Source: Pannonibacter carbonis (GTDB lineage Bacteria > Pseudomonadota > Alphaproteobacteria > Rhizobiales > Stappiaceae). From it: a stretch of DNA of 64,000 nt. How positions within the stretch are numbered: position 1 is the first letter of the stretch; every line of letters starts with the position of its first letter. This document shows positions 52,703-63,009 of this stretch, piece by piece. A program made the translations under genes and the position numbers. The stretch is from assembly GCF_003012935.1 (NCBI RefSeq), contig NZ_PUDR01000018.1, positions 1 through 64,000 on the forward strand, written 5' to 3'. The notes below the pieces were generated by a model. That model was not told the origin of the DNA. It did not search any database and worked only from the letters and a program-made list of their open reading frames with translations.

Positions 52703-52817
52703 TTTCTTTGGAAATGAAGCATGGTCGCGCCGTCTGCTCCGGACAGCGCGGCCCGACAATCTGAGCCTCCAAAATCCTGCACCGCAGAGCCGTCACAGCA
52801 ACAACAGTCCCCGTCAC

Positions 52818-52835
52818 GTCACGGGCCTGTCACGC
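52818..52835 (+). promoter_or_regulatory. Pho box upstream of phnF
   Basis: CGTCACG, GGCC and TGTCACG form an 11-bp-spaced direct repeat, the layout of PhoB binding sites (7-bp half-sites with 4-bp spacer). It lies 49 bp upstream of the phnF start. Phosphate starvation control of the phn operon is the known pattern. Confidence 0.65.
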
Positions 52836-52858: not shown

Positions 52859-52870
52859 CATTCGAATGAA
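52859..52870. promoter_or_regulatory. PhnF-type operator palindrome
   Basis: TCATTCGAATGA is a perfect 12-bp palindrome 13 bp upstream of the phnF ATG. A one-mismatch copy, TCATTCGGATGA, precedes phnD at 60917-60928. The shared site at both phn units and nearness to the GntR-type phnF gene make it the likely PhnF operator. Confidence 0.7.
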
Positions 52871-52883
52871 TTGGAGGCAATAT

Positions 52884-53630
52884 ATGGTGCGCGAAACATG
52901 GCAGACGATCCGCGACCGTCTGGCCGCTGAAATCCTGTCTGGCGCGCTGGCCCCTGGCGCACAGCTGCCGACAGAGCCGGATCTCTGCACCCGTTTCGGC
53001 GCCGGCCGTCATTCCGTCCGCCGCGCCATCTCCGCCCTTGCGGTCGAGGGCAAGCTGCGCGTGGAGCAGGGCCGCGGCACCTTTGTCGAAAGCGCACCTC
53101 TCATCAACTACCAGATCAGCCGGCGCACGAGGTTTCGCCAGAACCTTTTGAGCCAGGGCGTAACGCCTGCGGGCGAACAGGTGACCGATGACGTGATCGC
53201 GGCGCCGCGCCGTGTCGCAGAAGCCCTCAGTCTTCCCGAGGGCACGAGCGTTCACCGGCTCATGCGCCGGGGCCTGGCCGATGGCGTCCCTGTCAGCCTC
53301 GGCGTTGCCTACCATCCCTTCGCCCTGTTCCCTGATATGGCGGAACTGCGCCGGTCGGGTCGGTCGGTCACCGACATCTACCGCAGCCACGGCATTACCG
53401 ACTATCTGCGCAAGAGCACGACCATCTATGCCCGCCGACCGACGGTCGAGGAAGCCAGGCTGCTGAAACAGCACCCGGACCAGCCGGTCCTTGTCGTCAC
53501 CAAGACGGACGTCGACATGTCCGGCCGCCCCATCGGCTACTCCCAGGCCATCTGGGCGGCTGACCGCGTCCAGTTCACCTTCGATCTTCCTGAAGCAAAC
53601 GAAATCCGGAGCCCCGACCAGGATGACTGA
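52884..53630 (+). CDS. phnF: GntR-family regulator of phosphonate genes
   Basis: A 248-residue GntR/HutC-type repressor. The winged helix (TWQTIRDRLAAEILSGALAP, then HSVRRAISALAVEG) is followed by a UTRA effector domain from about residue 85. GGAGG at 52872-52876 sits 7 bases before ATG 52884, which I prefer to the earlier ATG at 52866. It overlaps phnG by 8 bp. PhnF represses phn genes in several bacteria until phosphonate or phosphate shortage is sensed. Confidence 0.88.
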   Translation: MVRETWQTIRDRLAAEILSGALAPGAQLPTEPDLCTRFGAGRHSVRRAISALAVEGKLRVEQGRGTFVESAPLINYQISRRTRFRQNLLSQGVTPAGEQVTDDVIAAPRRVAEALSLPEGTSVHRLMRRGLADGVPVSLGVAYHPFALFPDMAELRRSGRSVTDIYRSHGITDYLRKSTTIYARRPTVEEARLLKQHPDQPVLVVTKTDVDMSGRPIGYSQAIWAADRVQFTFDLPEANEIRSPDQDD

Positions 53631-54075
53631 CGCCGCTCACGCCGCAACGACTGTCGCCAACCACGGCGACTTTCTCACCGCCCTCTCCCACGCCGATGCA
53701 GAAAGCGTGAAGCGCTTCGCCGAAGGCCTGCTGCCGCAGCTGGGAGCCATCGAGGTCCTGCGCAGCCGCACCGGCCTAGTCATGCTGCCGTTCCGAGACA
53801 CGGTGAAAGGCACCGATTTCCACCTCGGCGAGGTGCTCGTCGCCGAAGCCGAGGTCCGCCTCACCGACCACGACGCCACCGGCTACGGCATGGTCACGGG
53901 CCGCGATCTGGAATGGGCGATGGCCATGGCACTGATTGATGCCGCCGCGACGGCCGACCTCGCGCCTGCGGCCATCGACGCCTTCGTGACCGGGCTGGAG
54001 GCGGCCAATGCCGACCGCGACCGGGCGCGCCTGTGCGCCGTCGAGGCCACCCGCGTCGACATGGAAACCTTCTGA
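53623..54075 (+). CDS. phnG: C-P lyase complex subunit PhnG
   Basis: A 150-residue subunit of the PhnGHIJ core. It includes LLPQLGAIEVLRSRTGLVML, FHLGEVLVAEAEV and the conserved GYGMVTGRDLEWAMAMALID. PhnG works with PhnI to displace adenine from ATP by methylphosphonate-type substrates. ATG 53623 overlaps the end of phnF and opens the core operon. Confidence 0.9.
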   Translation: MTDAAHAATTVANHGDFLTALSHADAESVKRFAEGLLPQLGAIEVLRSRTGLVMLPFRDTVKGTDFHLGEVLVAEAEVRLTDHDATGYGMVTGRDLEWAMAMALIDAAATADLAPAAIDAFVTGLEAANADRDRARLCAVEATRVDMETF

Positions 54076-54103
54076 TCCTCATCCTCGTCACGGAGACCCG
54101 CTC

Positions 54104-54688
54104 ATGGGTGCCCTGCCCCCCAGTTCCCACGCCCTCATCACCGCCCCCTTGCGCGGCGCGGACGAGATCCGCGACAACACGGCCTTCGAGGCGATCCTCT
54201 GGGCGCTGAGCCGTCCTGGTGAGATCCGTCATCTGCCCGAACCCGGTCCCCGCACGATCCTGCTCGCGCTCGTCGACCGCGAATGCCGCGTCCATGCGGA
54301 TGATGCGGTCATCGGCGAGCTGGCCGCCTGGACCGGCGCGACCCTGACGCCGCTGGCGGGCGCCGACCACGTCTTCCTGTCGCTGGAGCCGGGCGCCGAC
54401 ATCGCCCGCCTCAACACTCTGAAGGTCGGCTCCGCGCTCTATCCCGATGATGGGGCCACCGTGGTCGTCGAGGCCCGGCTTGGCCGTGCCGAGGGCGACG
54501 GCCAGCGCCTCAGCCTGTCAGGTCCGGGCATCGAGACCACCCGCGAGATCGCCGTCGCCGGCCTGCCGGCGGGTTTCTTCGCCCTGCGCGACCGGCTCTG
54601 CCGCTACCCGCTCGGCTTTGACCTTTTCATCGTCGATGGCAGCGATGTCATCGGCCTGCCCCGCTCGACCCTGATCGAGGTGCTCTGA
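54104..54688 (+). CDS. phnH: C-P lyase complex subunit PhnH
   Basis: A 194-residue core subunit with FEAILWALSRPGEIRHLP near the start and LFIVDGSDVIGLPRSTLIEV at the end, both typical of PhnH. PhnH binds the PhnGI tetramer and aids transfer of the phosphonate to ribose. CGGAGA precedes ATG 54104, 28 bp after phnG. It overlaps phnI by one base (TGATG). Confidence 0.9.
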   Translation: MGALPPSSHALITAPLRGADEIRDNTAFEAILWALSRPGEIRHLPEPGPRTILLALVDRECRVHADDAVIGELAAWTGATLTPLAGADHVFLSLEPGADIARLNTLKVGSALYPDDGATVVVEARLGRAEGDGQRLSLSGPGIETTREIAVAGLPAGFFALRDRLCRYPLGFDLFIVDGSDVIGLPRSTLIEVL

Positions 54689-55794
54689 TGGCCTATGTCG
54701 CAACCCGTGGCGGGGAAAAAGCCATTGACCAGTCCGAGCGCCTCTACCGCGCCGACATGGGCACCATCGATGCCGGGCGTATTGCGGAAATCCGCCGCGC
54801 CCTGCCCTGGCTGATCGACCGGGTGATGGGCGAGGCCTCGCTCTACGAGGCCGATCTGGCGGCGCTGGCGCTGGCCCAGTCCGGTGGCGACCTCTACGAG
54901 GCGGTGCTGCTGCTGCGCGCCTGGCGCACCACCCAGCCGCGCCTCACCATCGCGGAGCCGGTGACGCAGGACAAGCTCTTCACCCACCGCCGCATCTCCG
55001 CCGCCTTCAAGGACATCCCCGGCGGCCAGATCCTCGGGCCCACGCTCGACTATTCGCACCGGCTGCTCGCCACCGGCGTGCTCGAGGGCCGTCCCTTCGT
55101 GCCCGCGGCGGTCGAACCGGCCACCACGCCCGCCCCGGCTGAGCAGCCCTCGCTGGCCGCCTGGCAGAAGGCGCAAGGCCTCGTCGCCGATCCGGCGCGC
55201 GAGGATGTCGCCCTCGACGACATTCCCGACCTGACGCGCGAGCCGCTGCTGTTCCCGGCCAAGCGCGCCCACACGCTGCAGAGCCTCGCCCGCGCCGACA
55301 CCGGCGGCGTGCTGGCGCTCGGCTATTCCGCCATGCGCGGCTATGGCAACGCCCATCCGACCGTCAACGAGCTGCGCCTCGCTGAGGCCGAAGTGGTCGT
55401 CCGCCATCCGCGCGGCACCATGTTCAGCGCCGGCCGGGTCAAGGTCTCGCAGGCAGAAGTGACGTCCAAGGGCCGCTCCGGCCAGCTGGATCTCGGCTTC
55501 TGCGCCACCTTCGGCTGGAACGAGATCAAGGTCATCGCCGGCGCCACGCTCGATCTCAACGCGCCGGATGCGCCGCAGAACTCGCCGGTCAACGAGGAGT
55601 TCTTCCTCTACCACACCGAGCCGGTCGAGGCCTCGGGCTTCTGCATCCACTTCAAGCTCCCCCACTATGTCACCTTCCAGTCGGCGCTGGATGCCCTGCG
55701 CGACGCCAAGGCGAAGGCCGCAGCCTCGGACGCGGCGTCCACAGCGTCCGCCCCTGCCCGCCAGCCGGCCGTGACCGAAGAGGTTCCCGCATGA
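54688..55794 (+). CDS. phnI: C-P lyase complex subunit PhnI
   Basis: A 368-residue nucleosidase subunit that forms ribose 1-phosphonate 5-triphosphate with PhnGH. Conserved stretches include the N-terminal RGGEKAIDQSERL, RTTQPRLTIAEPVTQDKL, GYSAMRGYGNAHPTVNELR and the metal-binding HFKLPHYVTFQ, whose two histidines (321 and 326) match His328/His333 of E. coli PhnI at the PhnI-PhnJ interface. The catalytic parts of PhnI are therefore intact, unlike those of PhnJ. It overlaps phnJ by ATGA. Confidence 0.93.
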   Translation: MAYVATRGGEKAIDQSERLYRADMGTIDAGRIAEIRRALPWLIDRVMGEASLYEADLAALALAQSGGDLYEAVLLLRAWRTTQPRLTIAEPVTQDKLFTHRRISAAFKDIPGGQILGPTLDYSHRLLATGVLEGRPFVPAAVEPATTPAPAEQPSLAAWQKAQGLVADPAREDVALDDIPDLTREPLLFPAKRAHTLQSLARADTGGVLALGYSAMRGYGNAHPTVNELRLAEAEVVVRHPRGTMFSAGRVKVSQAEVTSKGRSGQLDLGFCATFGWNEIKVIAGATLDLNAPDAPQNSPVNEEFFLYHTEPVEASGFCIHFKLPHYVTFQSALDALRDAKAKAAASDAASTASAPARQPAVTEEVPA

Positions 55795-56708
55795 CCAGCC
55801 TTGCCAGTCTGACAAAGCCCTGGGAGGCCTTCTCCTACGGTTTCCTCGATGCCTCGGCCAAGCGCGAGCTGCGCCGCAAGATGCTGAAGGCGGTCGCCGT
55901 GCCCGGCTGCCAGATGCCCTATGCCAGCCGCGAGGTGCCGATTGCGCGCGGCTGGGGCACAGGCGGCCTGCAGGTGACCCTGACGCTGCTGAAGCCCACC
56001 TCCGTGGTCAAGGTCATCGACCAGGGCGCCGATGACAGCGTCAACGCCGCCTCGATCCGCAAGTTCCTCTCCCGCGTCTCCGGCGCCGGCAAGACCTGGG
56101 ACACGGGCGAGGCGACGATCCTGCAGTCGCGCCACCGGGTGCCGGAGGAAGTCCTGCGCGAGGATCAGATCCTCGTGCTGCAGGTGCCCAACCCGGAACC
56201 GTTGCGTCCTGTCGAGCCCAACATGTCGGTCGCCCGCCAGATGCACGCCGATGCTGACTACGGCCGGCTCTGGCTGACGCTCTACGAGCAGATGGTCCGC
56301 TCCGGCCGCATCATGCAGGGCGCGGCCTATCCGAGCCTCGTCAACGGCCGCCATGTCATGACGCCCTCGCCGATCCCGCGCTGGGACGTGCCGAAGCTGC
56401 ATATGGCAAGGCACCTCACCTTCCTCTCGGCCGGCCGCGAGAAGCGCCTCTATGCCGTGCCGCCCTACACCCGGGTCGAGCCGCTGGTCTTCTCCGACGT
56501 GCCCTACAAGGTCGAGGAACACCACGACCTCACCTGCCACCGCTCCGGCCTCACCGGCTATTTCATGAACGAGATCCCGCAGAACGACGGCTCGTCCAGC
56601 TTCGAGGTCTCCGACAGCCACTTCGGCATCAAGGCCATCCGCCGCAGCGAGGGCGAGGCCCTGGCCCCCATCGACACCTGGTACAAGAACGGAGAGCTCC
56701 AGCCATGA
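55791..56708 (+). CDS. phnJ: C-P lyase subunit PhnJ homologue lacking the radical-SAM cysteines
   Basis: A 305-residue PhnJ-family protein. Conserved parts include FSYGFLDASAKRELRRKML, the glycine in AVAVPGCQMPY (Gly39, counterpart of E. coli Gly32), RGWGTGGLQVT, VIDQGADDSVNAASIRKFL, LQSRHRVPEE (His115) and EKRLYAVPPYTRVE. In E. coli the C-terminus binds the iron-sulfur cluster by Cys241, Cys244 and Cys266 and uses Cys272. Here the same stretch aligns residue by residue with one gap, but only the first is cysteine: Cys249, Ser252, Val273, Gly279. The whole protein has just two cysteines (40 and 249). The tail is about 25 residues longer than in E. coli. No frameshift explains this. It may catalyse a different step or need another partner. 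Confidence 0.85.
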   Translation: MTSLASLTKPWEAFSYGFLDASAKRELRRKMLKAVAVPGCQMPYASREVPIARGWGTGGLQVTLTLLKPTSVVKVIDQGADDSVNAASIRKFLSRVSGAGKTWDTGEATILQSRHRVPEEVLREDQILVLQVPNPEPLRPVEPNMSVARQMHADADYGRLWLTLYEQMVRSGRIMQGAAYPSLVNGRHVMTPSPIPRWDVPKLHMARHLTFLSAGREKRLYAVPPYTRVEPLVFSDVPYKVEEHHDLTCHRSGLTGYFMNEIPQNDGSSSFEVSDSHFGIKAIRRSEGEALAPIDTWYKNGELQP

Positions 56709-57532
56709 CCGCCCAAAGCCCCGCGCCGCGCGGCGAGGCCGCTCCGCGCCAGCTGCCGCAGTTGATGACGACGCCGCCGATTCTCACCATGCGCGGCATC
56801 ACCCGCCGCTTCGGCAAGGTCACCGCGCTTGAGGACGTGGATGCCACCGTCTATCCGGGCGAGGTGCTCGGCATCGTCGGCGAGAGCGGCTCCGGCAAGT
56901 CGACGCTCCTGCGCATGATGAACCTCGAGGACACGCCCGACACCGGCACCTACGAGCTGGACCTGCCGGGCCTTGGCGGCAACCTGTTCGGCCTCGACCG
57001 TTTCGAGCGGCGCATGCTCTGCGCCCGCAACATCGGCATCGTCTACCAGAACCCGCATCTCGGCCTGCTGATGCGCCATTCCTCCTCCGGCAACGTGGCC
57101 GAACGCCTGCTCATCGCCGGCGAGCGCAGCTTCAAGGTGCTGCGCGACAAGGCCCGCGAGGCGCTGGACGCGTCCGAGTTCCCGCTGGAGCGCATGGATG
57201 CCCGGCCCATCGAGCTGTCGGGCGGCATGCAGCAGCGCGTGCAGCTCGCCAAGGCCATCGCGCTCGAACCGGCGCTCCTGCTGCTCGACGAGCCGACCAC
57301 CGGGCTCGACGTCTCTGTCCAGGCCCTCGTCCTCGACACGCTGAAGCGGCTGCAGCGCGACCGCTCCATCACCATGGTCATCGTCTCGCATGACCTTGGC
57401 GTCATTCACACCATGGCCGACCGGGTCATGGTCATGCGCCGCGGCCGGGTGGTCGAGCAGGGGCTGGTCGACCAGGTCTTCCAGGACCCGCAGCACGAAT
57501 ACACCCAGCAGCTCGTCCACGCGAAACTTTGA
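56705..57532 (+). CDS. phnK: C-P lyase-associated ATPase PhnK
   Basis: A 275-residue ABC-type ATPase that binds the PhnGHIJ core rather than a membrane permease. Walker A GESGSGKST, the signature LSGGMQQRVQLAKAI, Walker B LLLLDEPTTGLDVS and VIVSHDLGVIH are intact. The N-terminal 25 residues are an extension before PPILTMRGIT. It overlaps phnJ by ATGA, so expression is coupled. In E. coli PhnK contacts PhnJ directly, so it is a natural place to look for compensation of the unusual PhnJ. Confidence 0.9.
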   Translation: MTAQSPAPRGEAAPRQLPQLMTTPPILTMRGITRRFGKVTALEDVDATVYPGEVLGIVGESGSGKSTLLRMMNLEDTPDTGTYELDLPGLGGNLFGLDRFERRMLCARNIGIVYQNPHLGLLMRHSSSGNVAERLLIAGERSFKVLRDKAREALDASEFPLERMDARPIELSGGMQQRVQLAKAIALEPALLLLDEPTTGLDVSVQALVLDTLKRLQRDRSITMVIVSHDLGVIHTMADRVMVMRRGRVVEQGLVDQVFQDPQHEYTQQLVHAKL

Positions 57533-57552
57533 CAGCTAAGGATCACGCTCGT

Positions 57553-58314
57553 ATGACCCCGGTTCTCGACGTGGAAGGCCTGTCGAAGCGCTTCCACATG
57601 TATCACCTCGACCAGGACCTGCACGCCTTCAGCGGCATTTCCTTCCGTCTTCACGCCGGCGAATTCCTGCTGCTGCGCGGCGAAAACGGCGTCGGCAAGT
57701 CCACCCTCCTGCGCACCCTCTACCGCAGCTACCTGCCCCAGGCCGGTCACATCTGGTACCAGGCCGCAGAGGGCCGCATTGACCTTGCCACCGCTGCCGA
57801 CGTGGACATTACCTTGTTGCGCCGCCGCGACATCGGCTTCGTCACCCAGTTCCTCGTTGCCCGTCCGCGTGTGGCGGCCGACGAGATCGTGGCCGAACCG
57901 CTGCGCCGCGCCGGCGTGGCTCAGGCGGAAGCGCTGGACGAGGCTCGCCGCTGGCTCGGCGAGTTCGGCGTCAAGCGCGACCTCTGGCGCGCCTATCCCA
58001 CCACCTTCTCCGGCGGCGAGCAGCAGAAGGTGAACCTCGCCCGCGCGCTGATCCTGCCGCAGAAGCTCCTGCTGCTCGATGAGCCGACCGCCTCGCTCGA
58101 CGCCGGCGCCCGTGCGGCGCTCGTCCGCCGCCTCGCCGATCTCAAGTCCGCCGGGGTCGCCATGATCGGCGTCTTCCACCATCCCGGCGACGTGGCCGAC
58201 CTCATTGACCGGGAAATCCTCCTGACCACCCAGCGCCTGCCGGATGAAGCTGGCGCTGAAACCCAAGCCGCCCCCAAAGCCGCACCTGGAGACCTTGAGC
58301 ATGTGGCTGTCTGA
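57553..58314 (+). CDS. phnL: C-P lyase-associated ATPase PhnL
   Basis: A 253-residue ABC-type ATPase. Walker A is RGENGVGKST, the signature FSGGEQQKVNLARAL and Walker B LLLLDEPTASLD. HMYHLDQDLHAFSGISFRL near the start is typical of PhnL. The start is ATG 57553 after AAGGAT, with an in-frame TTG at 57529 as alternative. The end overlaps phnM. PhnL docks on PhnK as the second ATPase of the complex. Confidence 0.88.
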   Translation: MTPVLDVEGLSKRFHMYHLDQDLHAFSGISFRLHAGEFLLLRGENGVGKSTLLRTLYRSYLPQAGHIWYQAAEGRIDLATAADVDITLLRRRDIGFVTQFLVARPRVAADEIVAEPLRRAGVAQAEALDEARRWLGEFGVKRDLWRAYPTTFSGGEQQKVNLARALILPQKLLLLDEPTASLDAGARAALVRRLADLKSAGVAMIGVFHHPGDVADLIDREILLTTQRLPDEAGAETQAAPKAAPGDLEHVAV

Positions 58315-59473
58315 TTTTCGCATCGTCACCCCGACCGAGGTGATCGAGCACGGTTCGCTGCGCATCGAGGACGGGCACATCGCCGAGCTGCGCGAGGGCC
58401 CCGTCGCCGGCGCCAGCCTTCAGGGCAACGGCCTCCTGCTCCTGCCAGGCTTCGTCGACATGCACGGCGACATGGTCGAGCGCGAGGTCGAGCCGCGTCC
58501 CAACGTGCCGATGCCGCTGGAACTGGGCCTGCGCGACCTCGACCGGCGCCTGGCCGGCGCCGGCTTCACGACGGCCTATGCCGCCGTGTCCTTCAGCCCC
58601 ATGTCGACCTATGGCCACCTGCGCAGCTACGAGCACACCAGCGCGGTGATCCGCAAGCTCAAGGCCATGCGCGACAGCCTCAACGTCGACCACCGCGTCC
58701 ACGCCCGCTTCGAGATCACCTTCCCCAAGGCGCTGGACGTCATCGGCGAGCTGATTTCGGAAGGCACCGTCGACCTCATCTCCCTGACCGACCACACCCC
58801 CGGTCAGGGCCAGTACCGCGACATCGAACGCCACGCACAGAAAATGGCCCGCGAGAAGGGCATGAGCCGCGAGGAGGCCGCCGAGGCCATTGCCCGCCGC
58901 ATCGAGGAACGGACCCAGCCGGCCGACGTGCTGGCCGCCACCCTCTCGGCCATTTCCGACCTGTGCCGCAGCCATGGCGTGGCACTCGCCAGCCATGACG
59001 ACGACACGCTGGCCAAGGTCGCGCTGATGCAGGGCCTCGGCGTCGTCATCAGCGAGTTTCCGGTGACGCTCGAGGCCGCCCGGGAGGCCCGCCGCCTCGG
59101 GCTCGCCACCGCCATGGGCGCCCCCAACGCCCTGCGCGGCCAGTCCTACTCCGGCAACCTGTCGGCCCGGGAGGCCCATGCGACCGGTGTGCTCGACATG
59201 CTGGCCTCGGACTACCATCCGTCCGCCATGCTGCCGGCGCTCCTGGAACTGGCGAAGACCGATCCCGCCGGCCTGCCCGGCGCGGTGCGCCTCGCCACCC
59301 GCAACCCGTCCGAATCCTTGGGTCTGACCGACCGCGGCAGCCTCGAGACCGGCCGCCTTGCCGACCTTGTCATTGCGGATGAAACAGACATTGGCCATAT
59401 CCGCGCCACCCTGCGCCAGGGCCGGTTCATCTACTCCGACGGCTCCCTCGGCAGCACCCTGCGCGCCGCCTGA
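58301..59473 (+). CDS. phnM: alpha-D-ribose 1-methylphosphonate 5-triphosphate diphosphatase
   Basis: A 390-residue amidohydrolase that releases pyrophosphate from ribose 1-phosphonate 5-triphosphate to give the PhnJ substrate. Motifs are PGFVDMHGDMVEREVEPRP, RFEITFPKAL, LTDHTPGQGQYRD, LASHDDDT and LASDYHPSAML with the metal ligands. ATG 58301 lies inside the end of phnL, after CTGGAGA. A long REP-like region follows. Confidence 0.92.
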   Translation: MWLSDFRIVTPTEVIEHGSLRIEDGHIAELREGPVAGASLQGNGLLLLPGFVDMHGDMVEREVEPRPNVPMPLELGLRDLDRRLAGAGFTTAYAAVSFSPMSTYGHLRSYEHTSAVIRKLKAMRDSLNVDHRVHARFEITFPKALDVIGELISEGTVDLISLTDHTPGQGQYRDIERHAQKMAREKGMSREEAAEAIARRIEERTQPADVLAATLSAISDLCRSHGVALASHDDDTLAKVALMQGLGVVISEFPVTLEAAREARRLGLATAMGAPNALRGQSYSGNLSAREAHATGVLDMLASDYHPSAMLPALLELAKTDPAGLPGAVRLATRNPSESLGLTDRGSLETGRLADLVIADETDIGHIRATLRQGRFIYSDGSLGSTLRAA

Positions 59474-59827: not shown

Positions 59828-60637
59828 TCAGCCGCCCTTGGCCGACCGGGCCCGGCGTTGCGTCCACCGCACCAGCGTGTCGAACTGCACCTCCATCCGC
59901 GCCTCGCCGGAGAGCCCGTGCCGGGCGCAGATCTCCAGATAGTCCGCCATCACCCGCGACAGCCCGAGACGCCGCACCACCGCCCAGACGGTCGCCCGCG
60001 TCAGGTAGAAGTCGATCAGCTCGCGCGCGGTGAAGGCACGCGACCAGGGCCAGCGCCGGCTGTGCGCCGTCAGGAACCCGTCTAGGCCGGAGAGCTCCGT
60101 GTGGCTCGGCTCCTTGCGCAGTTCGCGGGCTTCCAGCTCCACCCGGCTCGGATAATGCTCGCTGACATAGGCCTCGAAGTCGTCGAAGATCTGCGCCGGC
60201 CGCCGCCGGTTGCGCACCAGCGCCAGCACGCCCCCCGGTGCCAGGATCCGCGCCGCTTCGGCATAGAATTTCGGCCGGTCGAACCAGTGCACCGCCGAAC
60301 AGGCAACCACCAGCGAGGCAAAGCCCGATGGCAGCGCCAGCTGCTCGGCCGGCGCTGCGATGATCTGCACCTGCGGCGTGGTGCGGAACCTTCGCATCAG
60401 CACCCGGCGCATGTCCTCGCCCGGTTCGCTGGCGATCACGCTCCAGCCCTCGCCGAGGCCGGTCAGCAGGTTGTCGGTCGAGTTGCCCGGCCCAGCCCCA
60501 ACGTCGACGGCCACCCGAAGACCCTGCCGCGTCGGACAGGTCTGGGCCAGATGCGCAAACACATCGCAAGGGTACCCGGGACGATTGGCTTCGTAGAACT
60601 CGGCCAGTCCCTCGAACTGATCGGCAGTCTCGATCAT
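59828..60637 (-). CDS. class I SAM-dependent methyltransferase
   Basis: A 269-residue methyltransferase. Motif I is AVDVGAGPGNSTDNLL, with the acidic end of strand 2 in IASEPGEDMRRVL, then ACSAVHWFDRPKFYAEAARI and LAPGGVLALVRN. It resembles trans-aconitate-type or ubiquinone-type small-molecule methyltransferases. The ATG at 60637 begins MIETADQFEGLAEFYEANRP, the usual start of the group; an extension to 60751 has no support. It sits on the opposite strand between the two phn units. A link to phosphonate metabolism is possible but not shown. Confidence 0.82.
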   Translation of the reverse strand: MIETADQFEGLAEFYEANRPGYPCDVFAHLAQTCPTRQGLRVAVDVGAGPGNSTDNLLTGLGEGWSVIASEPGEDMRRVLMRRFRTTPQVQIIAAPAEQLALPSGFASLVVACSAVHWFDRPKFYAEAARILAPGGVLALVRNRRRPAQIFDDFEAYVSEHYPSRVELEARELRKEPSHTELSGLDGFLTAHSRRWPWSRAFTARELIDFYLTRATVWAVVRRLGLSRVMADYLEICARHGLSGEARMEVQFDTLVRWTQRRARSAKGG

Positions 60638-60881
60638 GATTGCGCTTTCGGCGGACGGTGCCAGCAACAGCAAAGGTCCGAAATTGGTTCGAATGACTTT
60701 GCGCCAAACCCATGACAGTTCCGCGACCAGCAGATGAACTTTCCATGTCATTCACTTCCCGCACGGACATCCGAAGGTAACCTAACATTCTGTTTTCAAT
60801 AACTATTCCGCCGCCCTCTGATCAGCTCGCCTCTTTGCCATAAGCGGCCCAAGTCCATGCCTGTGGCCCACCCGGTGTGTG

Positions 60882-60928: not shown

Positions 60929-61195
60929 CGCAGCGCTGTTACAGAGGCGAGGCAGTGTGCCCGTCATGAAGCAGGTCATCATGTCTGTGCCTGGCCAAGG
61001 CCGCACGATCATGCCGACTGGCTTGGAAGAACGACGGTTTAAATTAGCCAACCACCTACCAACCGCCTGCAAACTATGACGAAATCTGAGCAATCAGGCA
61101 GTCATAAAACAACAATGCAAAGAATATAGATAAAACGCGGCGTTGGAACACCGGTTGGCAACGAGCCATCACGCAACTTGCATCAGGAGCAGATC

Positions 61196-62119
61196 GTGTA
61201 TAGCAAGATTTTTACTGCCTTTGCCGTAGCAGCAGCTACCTTTACTGCAACGACGTCGGCCTTCGCTGATTGGCGTGACCAGATCCCGGTCGTCCGCGTC
61301 GGCATCATCGGCGGCGAGAACGAAGCCGACCGCCTGAAGCGCCTGTCCTGCCTTGAAGTCAAGATCAAGGAAAAGGTCGAGCTTCCAGTCCAGTTCTTCC
61401 CGGCTACCGACTACGCCGGTGTCATGCAGGGCCTGCTCGCTGGCCAGCTCGAGATGGCCGGCCTCGGCCCCGTCGGCTATGCCGGCATCATGCTGCAGGA
61501 CGAGAACGCGGTCGAGCCCTTCGTCGTCAGCTCGAATGTCGACGGCTCGCTCGGCTACTATTCGGTCATCATCACCCGCGCTGACAGCGGTATCACCGAC
61601 CTTGAAGGCCTGAAGGGCAAGTCGCTGGCCTGGGCCGATCCGAACTCCTCGTCCGGCTATCTTTATCCCAAGGCAGGCCTGGAACTCGCCGATATCAAGA
61701 TCGACGAGTATTTCAGCTCGACCGGTTTCTCCGGTGGCCATGAGCAGAGCGTTCTGGCCGTGCTCGACAAGCAGTATGACTCTGCTGCGACCTGGTCCTC
61801 CATGATGGGCGAGAAGGCCGAGGGCTACACCCGCGGCAACATCCGCCGCATGGTCGATAAGGGCATGTTGAAGATGGACGACATCAACATCGTCTGGCAG
61901 TCCGGCCTGATCCCGAACGGCCCGACCGTGATCCGCAAGGACCTGCCGGCTGAGTTCAAGGCTGCGATGCTGGATCTCTACACCAACCTGCATGTCTCCG
62001 ACCCTGAGTGCTACAAGGCCGTCATGGGCGGTGAAGGCGCCGGTTACGTCGTGCCGCCGGTCGGCTTCTATGACGAGACCATTGAACTGCGCCGCCGCGA
62101 AGTCGCCGGTTCGCGCTGA
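61196..62119 (+). CDS. phnD: phosphonate ABC transporter, periplasmic binding protein
   Basis: A 307-residue PhnD-family protein that captures phosphonates in the periplasm. A signal peptide ([19 protein letters not shown]) is followed by the mature domain with [40 protein letters not shown] and the ligand loop [16 protein letters not shown] 61196 is chosen because AGGAGCAG precedes it; TTG 61178 is in frame but lacks support. A strong terminator-like hairpin follows, separating it from phnC. Confidence 0.92.
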
Positions 62120-62161: not shown

Positions 62162-62190
62162 CCCCTTTGGTCCCGACAGTGGAGATCGCG

Positions 62191-63009
62191 ATGCTGGAGT
62201 TCTCTGGCCTCACCAAGGCCTTTGGCAACCACAAGGCTGTCAACAATATTACCCTGACCATTCCGCAGGGCCAGATGGTCGGCGTCATCGGCCGCTCGGG
62301 TGCCGGCAAGTCAACGCTGCTGCGCATGATCAACCGCCTCGCCGCCCCGACCGAGGGCCAGATCCGCTTTGACGGCCGCGACGTCTCTGCCCTGAAGGGC
62401 CGCGATCTTCTCGCCTGGCGTTCCGAATGCGCCATGGTGTTCCAGCAGTTCAATCTTGTCGGACGCATGTCGGTCATCAACAACGTACTGATGGGCCGGA
62501 TTTTCCATCACAGTTTCGCAACCGCCATGCTGCAGGCCTTCAGCGCCGAGGAACGGGCCCTGGCCATTCGCGCTCTCGACCGTCTCGGCATGGCCCACAC
62601 CGCCTTGCAGCGCGCCGAAACCCTCTCGGGCGGCCAGATGCAGCGCGTCGCCATCGCACGCGCCCTGGTGCAGCGCCCGAAGGTCATGCTGGCCGACGAG
62701 CCGATCGCCTCGCTGGATCCGCTCAATGCCAAGGTGGTGATGGATGCCCTGCGCCGCATCAACCAGGAAGACGGCATCACCGTTCTTGCAAATCTCCACA
62801 CCCTCGACACGGCGCGCACCTATTGTGACCGTATCGTCGGCCTGATGTCTGGCGCGGTCGTCTTCGATGGCACCCCGGACCAGTTGACCGATCGCCAGGC
62901 CCGCGAGATCTATGGCGCGGAAGCCGATGACGCCTTCAGCGAAGGGGTGACGTCCACGATGCTGACCCCGCGCGCACAGGCCGCCGACACATTCGACTCG
63001 GCCGCGTGA
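62191..63009 (+). CDS. phnC: phosphonate ABC transporter, ATPase
   Basis: A 272-residue ATPase of the phosphonate importer. Walker A is GRSGAGKST, the signature [16 protein letters not shown], Walker [14 protein letters not shown], and VLANLHTLD holds the switch His. GGAGATCGCG precedes ATG 62191. It overlaps the phnE1 gene by ATG/GTG spacing at 63006. The C-terminal 30 residues are an Ala-rich extension. Confidence 0.92.

Follow-up and report, generated by a model that had tools for sequence, protein, structure and literature searches.

A phnJ gene of Pannonibacter carbonis encodes a PhnJ homologue that lacks the cysteine motif on which the radical S-adenosylmethionine (SAM) chemistry of carbon-phosphorus (C-P) lyase depends. 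The gene lies in a 64,000-nucleotide stretch of DNA (positions 1 to 64,000 of contig NZ_PUDR01000018.1, assembly GCF_003012935.1), which was analyzed as a whole and is referred to below as the window. Judged from its sequence, the protein is PhnJ by family and belongs to a complex of C-P lyase type, and it fails the defining radical-SAM feature. Comparison with other PhnJ sequences indicates that it represents a real, widespread and constrained variant. A complete and well-kept C-P lyase machine without its iron-sulfur-holding residues, found in several unrelated groups, probably carries out another chemistry or acts on another substrate. The reading preferred here, to which we assign a rough probability of 0.45, is that of a functional, phosphate-starvation-controlled complex of C-P lyase type that has no iron-sulfur (Fe-S) or thiyl chemistry of its own and that would catalyze a non-radical cyclisation at the site formed by the PhnI zinc and PhnJ His108 (E. 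coli numbering); both the reaction and the class of substrate are what we infer. The gene and its altered region are located as follows.

55791-56708, + strand: phnJ variant without the CX2CX21CX5C iron-sulfur/thiyl motif (open reading frame of 305 amino acids; Pfam match, alignment and tree)
56535-56627, + strand: phnJ codons 249-279, with Cys249, Ser252, Val273 and Gly279 at the places of E. coli C241, C244, C266 and C272

The CX2CX21CX5C motif near the C-terminus of PhnJ is described as the cluster and thiyl motif in the available text of PMC4389238. The window PhnJ matches PF06007 over its full length (386.3 bits against a curated cut-off of 25; residues 13-280 on profile positions 2-270 of 275), its residues 13-278 align with residues 6-271 of E. 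coli PhnJ (4xb6_D) with few gaps, and it is 48-49% identical to the E. coli chains. The motif is absent from it, with Cys249, Ser252, Val273 and Gly279 standing where E. coli has C241, C244, C266 and C272, and Cys40 is its sole further cysteine. Gly39 (E. coli Gly32) and His115 (E. coli His108) are kept, and PhnI retains the histidines that correspond to E. coli His219, His328 and His333. On all of these residues the alignment agrees with what an initial, sequence-only reading of the window had proposed. AlphaFold models of PhnJ and PhnI (mean predicted local distance difference test scores of 51 and 54) were too weak for placing residues; a Foldseek search with the modelled PhnJ ranked E. coli PhnJ top, with a poor superposition (root-mean-square deviation about 12). 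No NCBIfam model matched the window PhnI or PhnJ at E 0.001, which indicates that the names of these proteins in public records derive from elsewhere.

PhnJ sequences were gathered from a contig profile scan (best 80 loci), whole-genome searches and plasmid records, and the 219 places found were reduced by identity and length to 191 distinct full-length sequences. All four cysteines were present in 137 of these, the first only in 52 and none in 2, with zero intermediates. The places of E. coli C244, C266 and C272 are thus without cysteine in 54/54 variants, 52 of which retain the cysteine at the C241 place, and the other 137/137 sequences carry all four. Among same-genus genomes, 3/4 carry the variant gene (95-99% identity) with the same residues and the fourth has canonical PhnJ only. 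Since the same loss is seen in these three genomes and in 54 of the 191 distinct sequences, sequencing error can be ruled out.

The tree was built from an alignment of 143 rows including 48 variants, from which one sequence of 563 residues (L102) was dropped. A single branch separated all 48 variants from the rest (Shimodaira-Hasegawa-like approximate likelihood ratio support 99, by a quick method), and identity to the window PhnJ was 58-99% for variants and 44-56% for canonical sequences. A search for a clade of CHRSG-type C-termini, suggested by the sequence-only reading, therefore recovers one, and it has its own PhnI lineage. Support at the drawn root was 57, which does not resolve the root; the simplest reading is that the cysteines were lost on the variant stem, the alternative being that they were ancestrally absent. 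In sequence clustering, one PhnI cluster comprised 45 variant and 0 canonical loci and the other comprised 48 canonical loci and 1 variant locus. PhnG, PhnM and the regulator PhnF also formed largely separate variant and canonical clusters; PhnJ, PhnK and PhnL were mixed at the same cut. The separate PhnI and largely separate PhnG, PhnM and PhnF clusters suggest a separate descent for much of the complex. Variant hosts include alphaproteobacteria named as Devosia, Paracoccus, Hoeflea, Aureimonas, Roseovarius, Neorhizobium, Mesorhizobium and Haematobacter, four Anaerolineae metagenome-assembled genomes (MAGs) that group with a Bacteroidetes-labelled MAG and another bacterial MAG, and Thermus thermophilus plasmids, including pVV8 of strain HB8. 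In one Rhodobacteraceae MAG (L068, G350:C24) the variant genes are followed by canonical phn genes on the same contig, and a third phnJ lies on another contig.

The host genome carries a second, canonical phnJ on another contig (G000:C32:194256-195071, 488 bits) with all four cysteines (CGLC...CSDSDYC), in a gene cluster that also carries phnN and a DUF1045 gene. The sequence-only reading had raised such a second copy, with the variant as a non-functional duplicate under relaxed selection, as the case that would overturn it; the canonical copy is indeed there, but relaxed selection is contradicted by low ratios of nonsynonymous to synonymous substitution (dN/dS). Before the cysteine region dN/dS was 0.012-0.099 in 10 variant pairs (pairwise counts, some with high dS), and over the C-terminal 44 codons it was 0.024-0.35 in the 9 variant pairs where it was defined. 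Three usable canonical pairs gave 0.062-0.115 over the body and 0.067-0.147 over the C-terminal 44 codons. Moreover, Pro263, Gly267, Glu272, Ser274, Asp275 and Lys281 in the C-terminal stretch are invariant in a 39-row alignment. As read from these substitution patterns, the stretch is altered yet constrained. A decaying duplicate, an assembly error or an annotation artefact, which the second phnJ of the host would fit, is therefore highly improbable and was rejected as a general explanation by the census of 54 distinct sequences with zero intermediates, by the dN/dS of 0.012-0.099 over the body and by the existence of genomes in which the variant is the only phnJ. These results, together with the spread of the clade over several phyla and the retention of the active-site residues described below, bear out the initial view that decay is unlikely.

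In E. coli the zinc ion is held by PhnI His328 and His333, with His219 joining in the open state, and a ligand modelled as ribose 1,2-cyclic phosphate 5-phosphate (PRcP) is bound through PhnJ Arg107, His108, Gln124 and loop 47-50, according to the portions of PMC9947105 available. In E. coli numbering, PhnJ GWGT 47-50, R107, H108 and Q124 are present in 48/48 variants, as are PhnI H219, H328 and H333; Gly32, the proposed glycyl-radical residue, appears in 54/54. The PhnK motifs GESGSGK, SGG and DE, which we take to be Walker A, signature and Walker B, respectively, are conserved in variant and canonical proteins alike, and the PhnL nucleotide-site motifs are also kept in variants. Among PhnJ positions at least 95% conserved in canonical sequences, 17 drop below 60% in variants, including the three cysteines, Gly206 (to Ser), Asp252 (to Asn) and Glu138. 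In the other subunits, compared after identical and badly sized proteins had been excluded, positions at least 93% conserved in canonical and below 25% in variant sequences numbered 11 in PhnI, where several of the changes are conservative, 6 in PhnK, 3 in PhnL, 1 in PhnH and 0 in PhnM, and 15 in PhnG, where a canonical set of 8 rows makes the comparison weak.

The three lost cysteines have no single replacing ligand, with position 244 being S or T, position 266 mostly V, L, I or M and position 272 mostly G or A. The cysteine at C241 is absent from 2/48 variants, namely two Anaerolineae PhnJ (L059 and L060) with zero cysteines. Two stand-in cysteines were considered. PhnJ Cys40 (E. coli position 33) was rejected, being Cys in 31/48 variants only, and PhnI Cys319 (window codon 319, 2 residues before a zinc ligand) was rejected as a general stand-in; it is present in 46/48 variants versus 1/47 canonical sequences and is missing from Thermus (2/48), where both sequences have Ala. 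No column of variant PhnG, PhnH, PhnK, PhnL or PhnM reached 80% Cys, the best being 32/45 in PhnH. Near variant operons, CxxxCxxC was found in 1/910 predicted genes (our own choice of open reading frames, at least 90 amino acids) and no linked radical-SAM partner recurred. A cluster could in principle still be bound with fewer cysteines and ligands from other residues or subunits, followed by the normal radical reaction, and the cysteine kept at the C241 place in 52/54 variants would suit this; the two PhnJ with zero Cys, the lack of a conserved ligand at 244, 266 and 272 and the lack of a conserved Cys column in the other subunits make it quite improbable. Given that the variants have no cysteine in common and that CxxxCxxC genes are so rare beside them, it is simplest to conclude that the chemistry common to the clade would be independent of an Fe-S cluster or thiyl of the complex.

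The variant was found in 49 genomes, each counted once, in 19 of which the search at E 1e-20 turned up no further PhnJ. For these counts, G342 was merged with G214 and G323 with G210, since their contig places coincide, and G333, whose canonical PhnJ is in two pieces, was counted as having both. A scan of the order covered 297 genomes, 161 with PhnJ and 13 with the variant, 6 of these being variant-only. A phylum scan around an Anaerolineae host covered 251 genomes, 20 with PhnJ and 6 with the variant, all variant-only, and a class scan covered 385 genomes, 65 with PhnJ and 2 (including the host) with the variant, both of which also had a canonical copy. Four of the variant-only alphaproteobacteria from the order scan (G041, G251, G316 and G286) are listed as 99% complete and the other two as 94% and 91%; some of the genomes with the variant are MAGs. 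PhnN and DUF1045 were over cut-off in 8/8 alphaproteobacterial variant-only genomes and in 0/2 phnJ-less relatives. PhnP was over cut-off in 0/31 genomes examined; some phn operons without phnP carry a 2H-phosphodiesterase gene, rcsF, as noted in the part of PMC10574752 available. Among the DUF1045 proteins scanned, 2/3 also weakly matched LigT or 2'-5' RNA ligase models.

In Devosia-like genomes the variant operon looks like a functional replacement of the canonical system, as far as gene order can tell. G210, which has both systems, shows a canonical order of phnM, phnN, divergent phnF, core genes, acyltransferase, phnC, phnD, phnE and phnE (L167). In the variant-only G041, of the same genus, phnM, phnN, acyltransferase, phnC, phnD and phnE remain and the canonical phnF-GHIJKL block is absent (L148); the variant operon adjoins these genes in divergent orientation (gene calls by homology). 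G251 is arranged like G041, and G316 in part. At two other places (G276:C103, about 104000-118000, and G169:C1, about 6040463) DUF1045 and/or phnN are in pieces with intact copies elsewhere in the genome, a pattern resembling that of rearranged phn islands.

Phosphate-starvation control of the operon is suggested by the following site.

52816-52833, + strand: Pho-box-like site ACGTCACGGGCCTGTCAC upstream of phnF (2 mismatches to CTGTCAYNNNNCTGTCAY; 0/40 shuffles as good)

In the sequence-only reading both a Pho box and a PhnF operator look functional, which is more than one sequence can support. The Pho-box match alone is weak: the stricter CTGTCATNNNNCTGTCAT at up to 3 mismatches misses the site, and its matches in the window are at chance (4 versus 3.7 expected). 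Support came from comparison across variant operons, of which 48/51 loci were scored, the others having no usable or distinct upstream stretch. Matches with up to 2 mismatches were found in 19/48 variant operons versus 10/1920 shuffles, and with up to 3 mismatches in 35/48 versus 104/1920; these loci are related, not independent, and the scoring covers variant operons only. In many alphaproteobacterial variant operons the site lies at a similar distance from the first gene. The recurrence of similar sites ahead of variant operons is what makes the window site credible. In 13/48 operons, including all six Anaerolineae-type loci, the best match had at least 4 mismatches. Upstream of phnF, window positions 52792-52833 contain four GTCAC repeats, the last two 11 bases apart, and a sigma-70 promoter scan found nothing.

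The preferred reading would work as follows. PhnI, with PhnG, PhnH and PhnL, would couple the ribose of adenosine triphosphate to a phosphonate or to a similar compound of organic phosphorus, PhnM would remove pyrophosphate, and the product would be held at the interface of the PhnI zinc and PhnJ, as PRcP is in E. coli. The complex would consist of the PhnGHIJ core, the PhnK and PhnL ATPases and PhnM, as a distinct lineage with no radical-SAM centre of its own. With zinc on PhnI His321 and His326 and with PhnJ Arg114 and His115, the ribose 2'-OH would attack phosphorus and expel the substituent without a radical, giving PRcP, which in alphaproteobacteria DUF1045 and PhnN may convert to phosphoribosyl pyrophosphate. 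Since such a cyclisation cannot easily expel an unactivated alkyl group, a better leaving group would be needed, and the substrates may be activated phosphonates or ester, amide or thio compounds of phosphorus. In E. coli, a ligand modelled as PRcP occupied the zinc site of a complex made without phosphonate; it was thought to be a side-reaction product, and mass spectrometry did not confirm it, according to the excerpted text of PMC9947105. Cyclisation at the zinc site thus need not start from a phosphonate. Taken together with the intact zinc and PRcP residues and the missing radical site, this favors a cysteine-free cyclisation as the reaction shared by the clade. More tentatively, the variant might be a form of the C-P lyase scaffold that breaks a P-C or other stable phosphorus bond of ribosylated substrates wholly at the PhnI-zinc/PhnJ-His108 site, in a metal-assisted, cysteine-free and non-radical manner, a suggestion that we regard as possible and lean against. 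If it were true, it would add a fourth route of phosphorus release from phosphonates or their relatives beside the hydrolytic, oxidative and radical routes.

Several observations weigh against a non-radical cyclisation. Many variant operons have the usual phnCDE (phnD or phnE near 38/51 variant versus 35/48 canonical loci) and a hexapeptide acyltransferase gene of a kind also found in canonical operons, which hints that the substrates are ordinary phosphonates, compounds with a C-P bond that is hard to cleave without a radical. Gly32 is invariant, and a fully non-radical enzyme could dispense with it unless it is structural. Conserved positions besides the cysteines also differ (17 in PhnJ with the three Cys counted, 11 in PhnI), and the active site may thus be altered in further ways. 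Finally, the 6 Anaerolineae-type variant-only genomes had PhnN over cut-off in 0/6 and a weak DUF1045 match in 1/6.

Some of the same observations would suit a complex that still cleaves an unactivated C-P bond by a radical or oxidative route, started by something other than a PhnJ cluster, such as a Gly32 radical formed in trans or the PhnI His/His(/Cys319) site with another metal and oxygen. The invariant Gly32, the gain of PhnI Cys319 two residues from a zinc ligand, and the likeness of operon make-up, Pho-box-like sites and transporters to canonical systems all argue for this. Nevertheless, we consider it unlikely, as the members share no cysteine that could carry a thiyl, the Thermus variants show that Cys319 is not general, and no linked activator of the usual type was found among the 910 neighbouring genes, an unlinked one not having been sought. 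Trans-activated glycyl radical enzymes depend on a cysteine in the active site and on an activase of the radical-SAM type. They would account for an invariant Gly without a cluster of its own; the variants differ from them in having no general Cys and no recurrent linked CxxxCxxC gene.

A complex that ribosylates a phosphonate, phosphate or analogue without breaking the C-P bond, in salvage, detoxification or biosynthetic transfer and with the phosphorus bond broken elsewhere or never, would be in line with the retention of the PhnI histidines and PhnM residues alongside loss of the lyase-specific cysteines, and with the paucity of PhnN and DUF1045 in the Anaerolineae-type genomes. The retention of PhnN and DUF1045 in all 8 alphaproteobacterial variant-only genomes, the invariance of the PRcP contacts in PhnJ and the Pho-box-like control, which points to phosphorus release, speak against it, and we judge it improbable. 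Of the interpretation offered by the sequence-only reading, non-decay and a clade of its own are thus supported by the comparisons, and whether C-P cleavage or another reaction takes place is a matter on which we infer.

Compared with the canonical core PhnGHIJ with PhnK and PhnL of E. coli (PDB 4xb6, 7z15-7z19), the variant has the same subunits in the same operon setting and keeps the PhnI zinc histidines, the PhnJ PRcP contacts, the PhnK and PhnL nucleotide-site motifs and the conserved PhnM residues; it always lacks three of the four Fe-S/thiyl cysteines, two members lack all four, and 46/48 have gained the PhnI Cys. The hydrolytic (PhnX, PhnA, PalA) and oxidative (PhnY/PhnZ) C-P enzymes are not known to be related to the C-P lyase proteins. 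What they share with the variant goes no further than the notion that a C-P bond can be cleaved with no radical-SAM centre (PMC10574752, available part); their substrates are free rather than ribosylated phosphonates. Structural work on the E. coli enzyme leaves a gap, in that a distance of 30 A separates Gly32 from the Fe-S site and, in the open state, the zinc ion lies 31 A from Gly32 (PMC9947105, available part). In the variant clade, nature has in effect taken away the Fe-S site and left the zinc site in place, which makes the division of labour between the two sites directly testable, and variant-only strains and the Thermus plasmid carriers, known from plasmid records, are ready-made test cases. 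PLSDB annotations name variant proteins as C-P lyase PhnJ, and metagenome studies use phnJ to mark phosphonate catabolism (PMC9381506 and PMC10574752, available parts); estimates of methane-forming potential may therefore include genes without the radical centre. No description of a PhnJ clade without these cysteines was found in the portions available of the open-licence literature on C-P lyase, PhnJ and pVV8, which does not establish its absence from print.

The other genes of the locus are as follows.

52866-53630, + strand: phnF, GntR/UTRA repressor (TIGR02325 204 bits, over the cut-off of 156.8; likelier start ATG 52884 after GGAGG, by eye)
53623-54075, + strand: phnG (PF06754 81.9 bits, cut-off 32.4; TIGR03293 88.7, just below the cut-off of 89; start by eye)
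54104-54688, + strand: phnH (PF05845 113 bits; TIGR03292 109.3, cut-off 91.5; start by eye)
54688-55794, + strand: phnI, variant lineage (His223, His321 and His326 kept, as E. coli His219, His328 and His333; extra Cys319, 2 residues before zinc ligand His321)
56705-57532, + strand: phnK, non-transport ATP-binding cassette (ABC) ATPase, overlapping phnJ (best NCBIfam match TIGR02323, 215 bits, below the cut-off of 302.85)
57529-58314, + strand: phnL, non-transport ABC ATPase (best NCBIfam match TIGR02324, 229.7 bits, below the cut-off of 256.3)
58301-59473, + strand: phnM, ribosyl phosphonate triphosphate (RPnTP) diphosphatase (NF011988 553.5 bits, over the cut-off of 369; start by eye)
59828-60751, - strand: putative SAM-dependent methyltransferase gene between phnM and phnD
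61178-62119, + strand: phnD, phosphonate-binding protein (PF12974 171 bits; TIGR03431 259.6, cut-off 261.1)
62188-63009, + strand: phnC, importer ATPase (TIGR02315 325.8, over the cut-off of 266.1)

The open reading frames and profile matches place phnGHIJKLM in one operon at 53623-59473, in keeping with the complete set initially proposed, and phnC is followed by two phnE and the hexapeptide acyltransferase gene (locus L034). Most of the 51 variant loci share the phnGHIJKLM order, and genes missing from some lists could reflect gene calling, contig ends or real absence. The methyltransferase belongs to a cluster (c47, of which the L161 member was scanned) that also occurs beside the variant operons L039, L161, L162 and L163.

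A UgpC/MalK-type ATPase cluster was found near 12/51 variant versus 2/48 canonical loci (Fisher p 0.008, from related loci with unequal lengths scanned), and one such gene adjoins a glucosylglycerate-hydrolase-like gene (below the model cut-off). No substrate was drawn from this ATPase, as the loci are related, the scanned lengths differ and the gene could be part of adjacent sugar operons. At L153 (2442-7452, G214) the genes immediately upstream of phnGHIJKL, in the same orientation, appear to encode an ABC transporter of sugar type whose ATPase is of the UgpC class. The rhizobial variant operons L049, L055, L119 and L158 adjoin a dipeptide/nickel-type ABC transporter, and the L119 binding protein matches NikA, GsiB and DppA models, all below their cut-offs.

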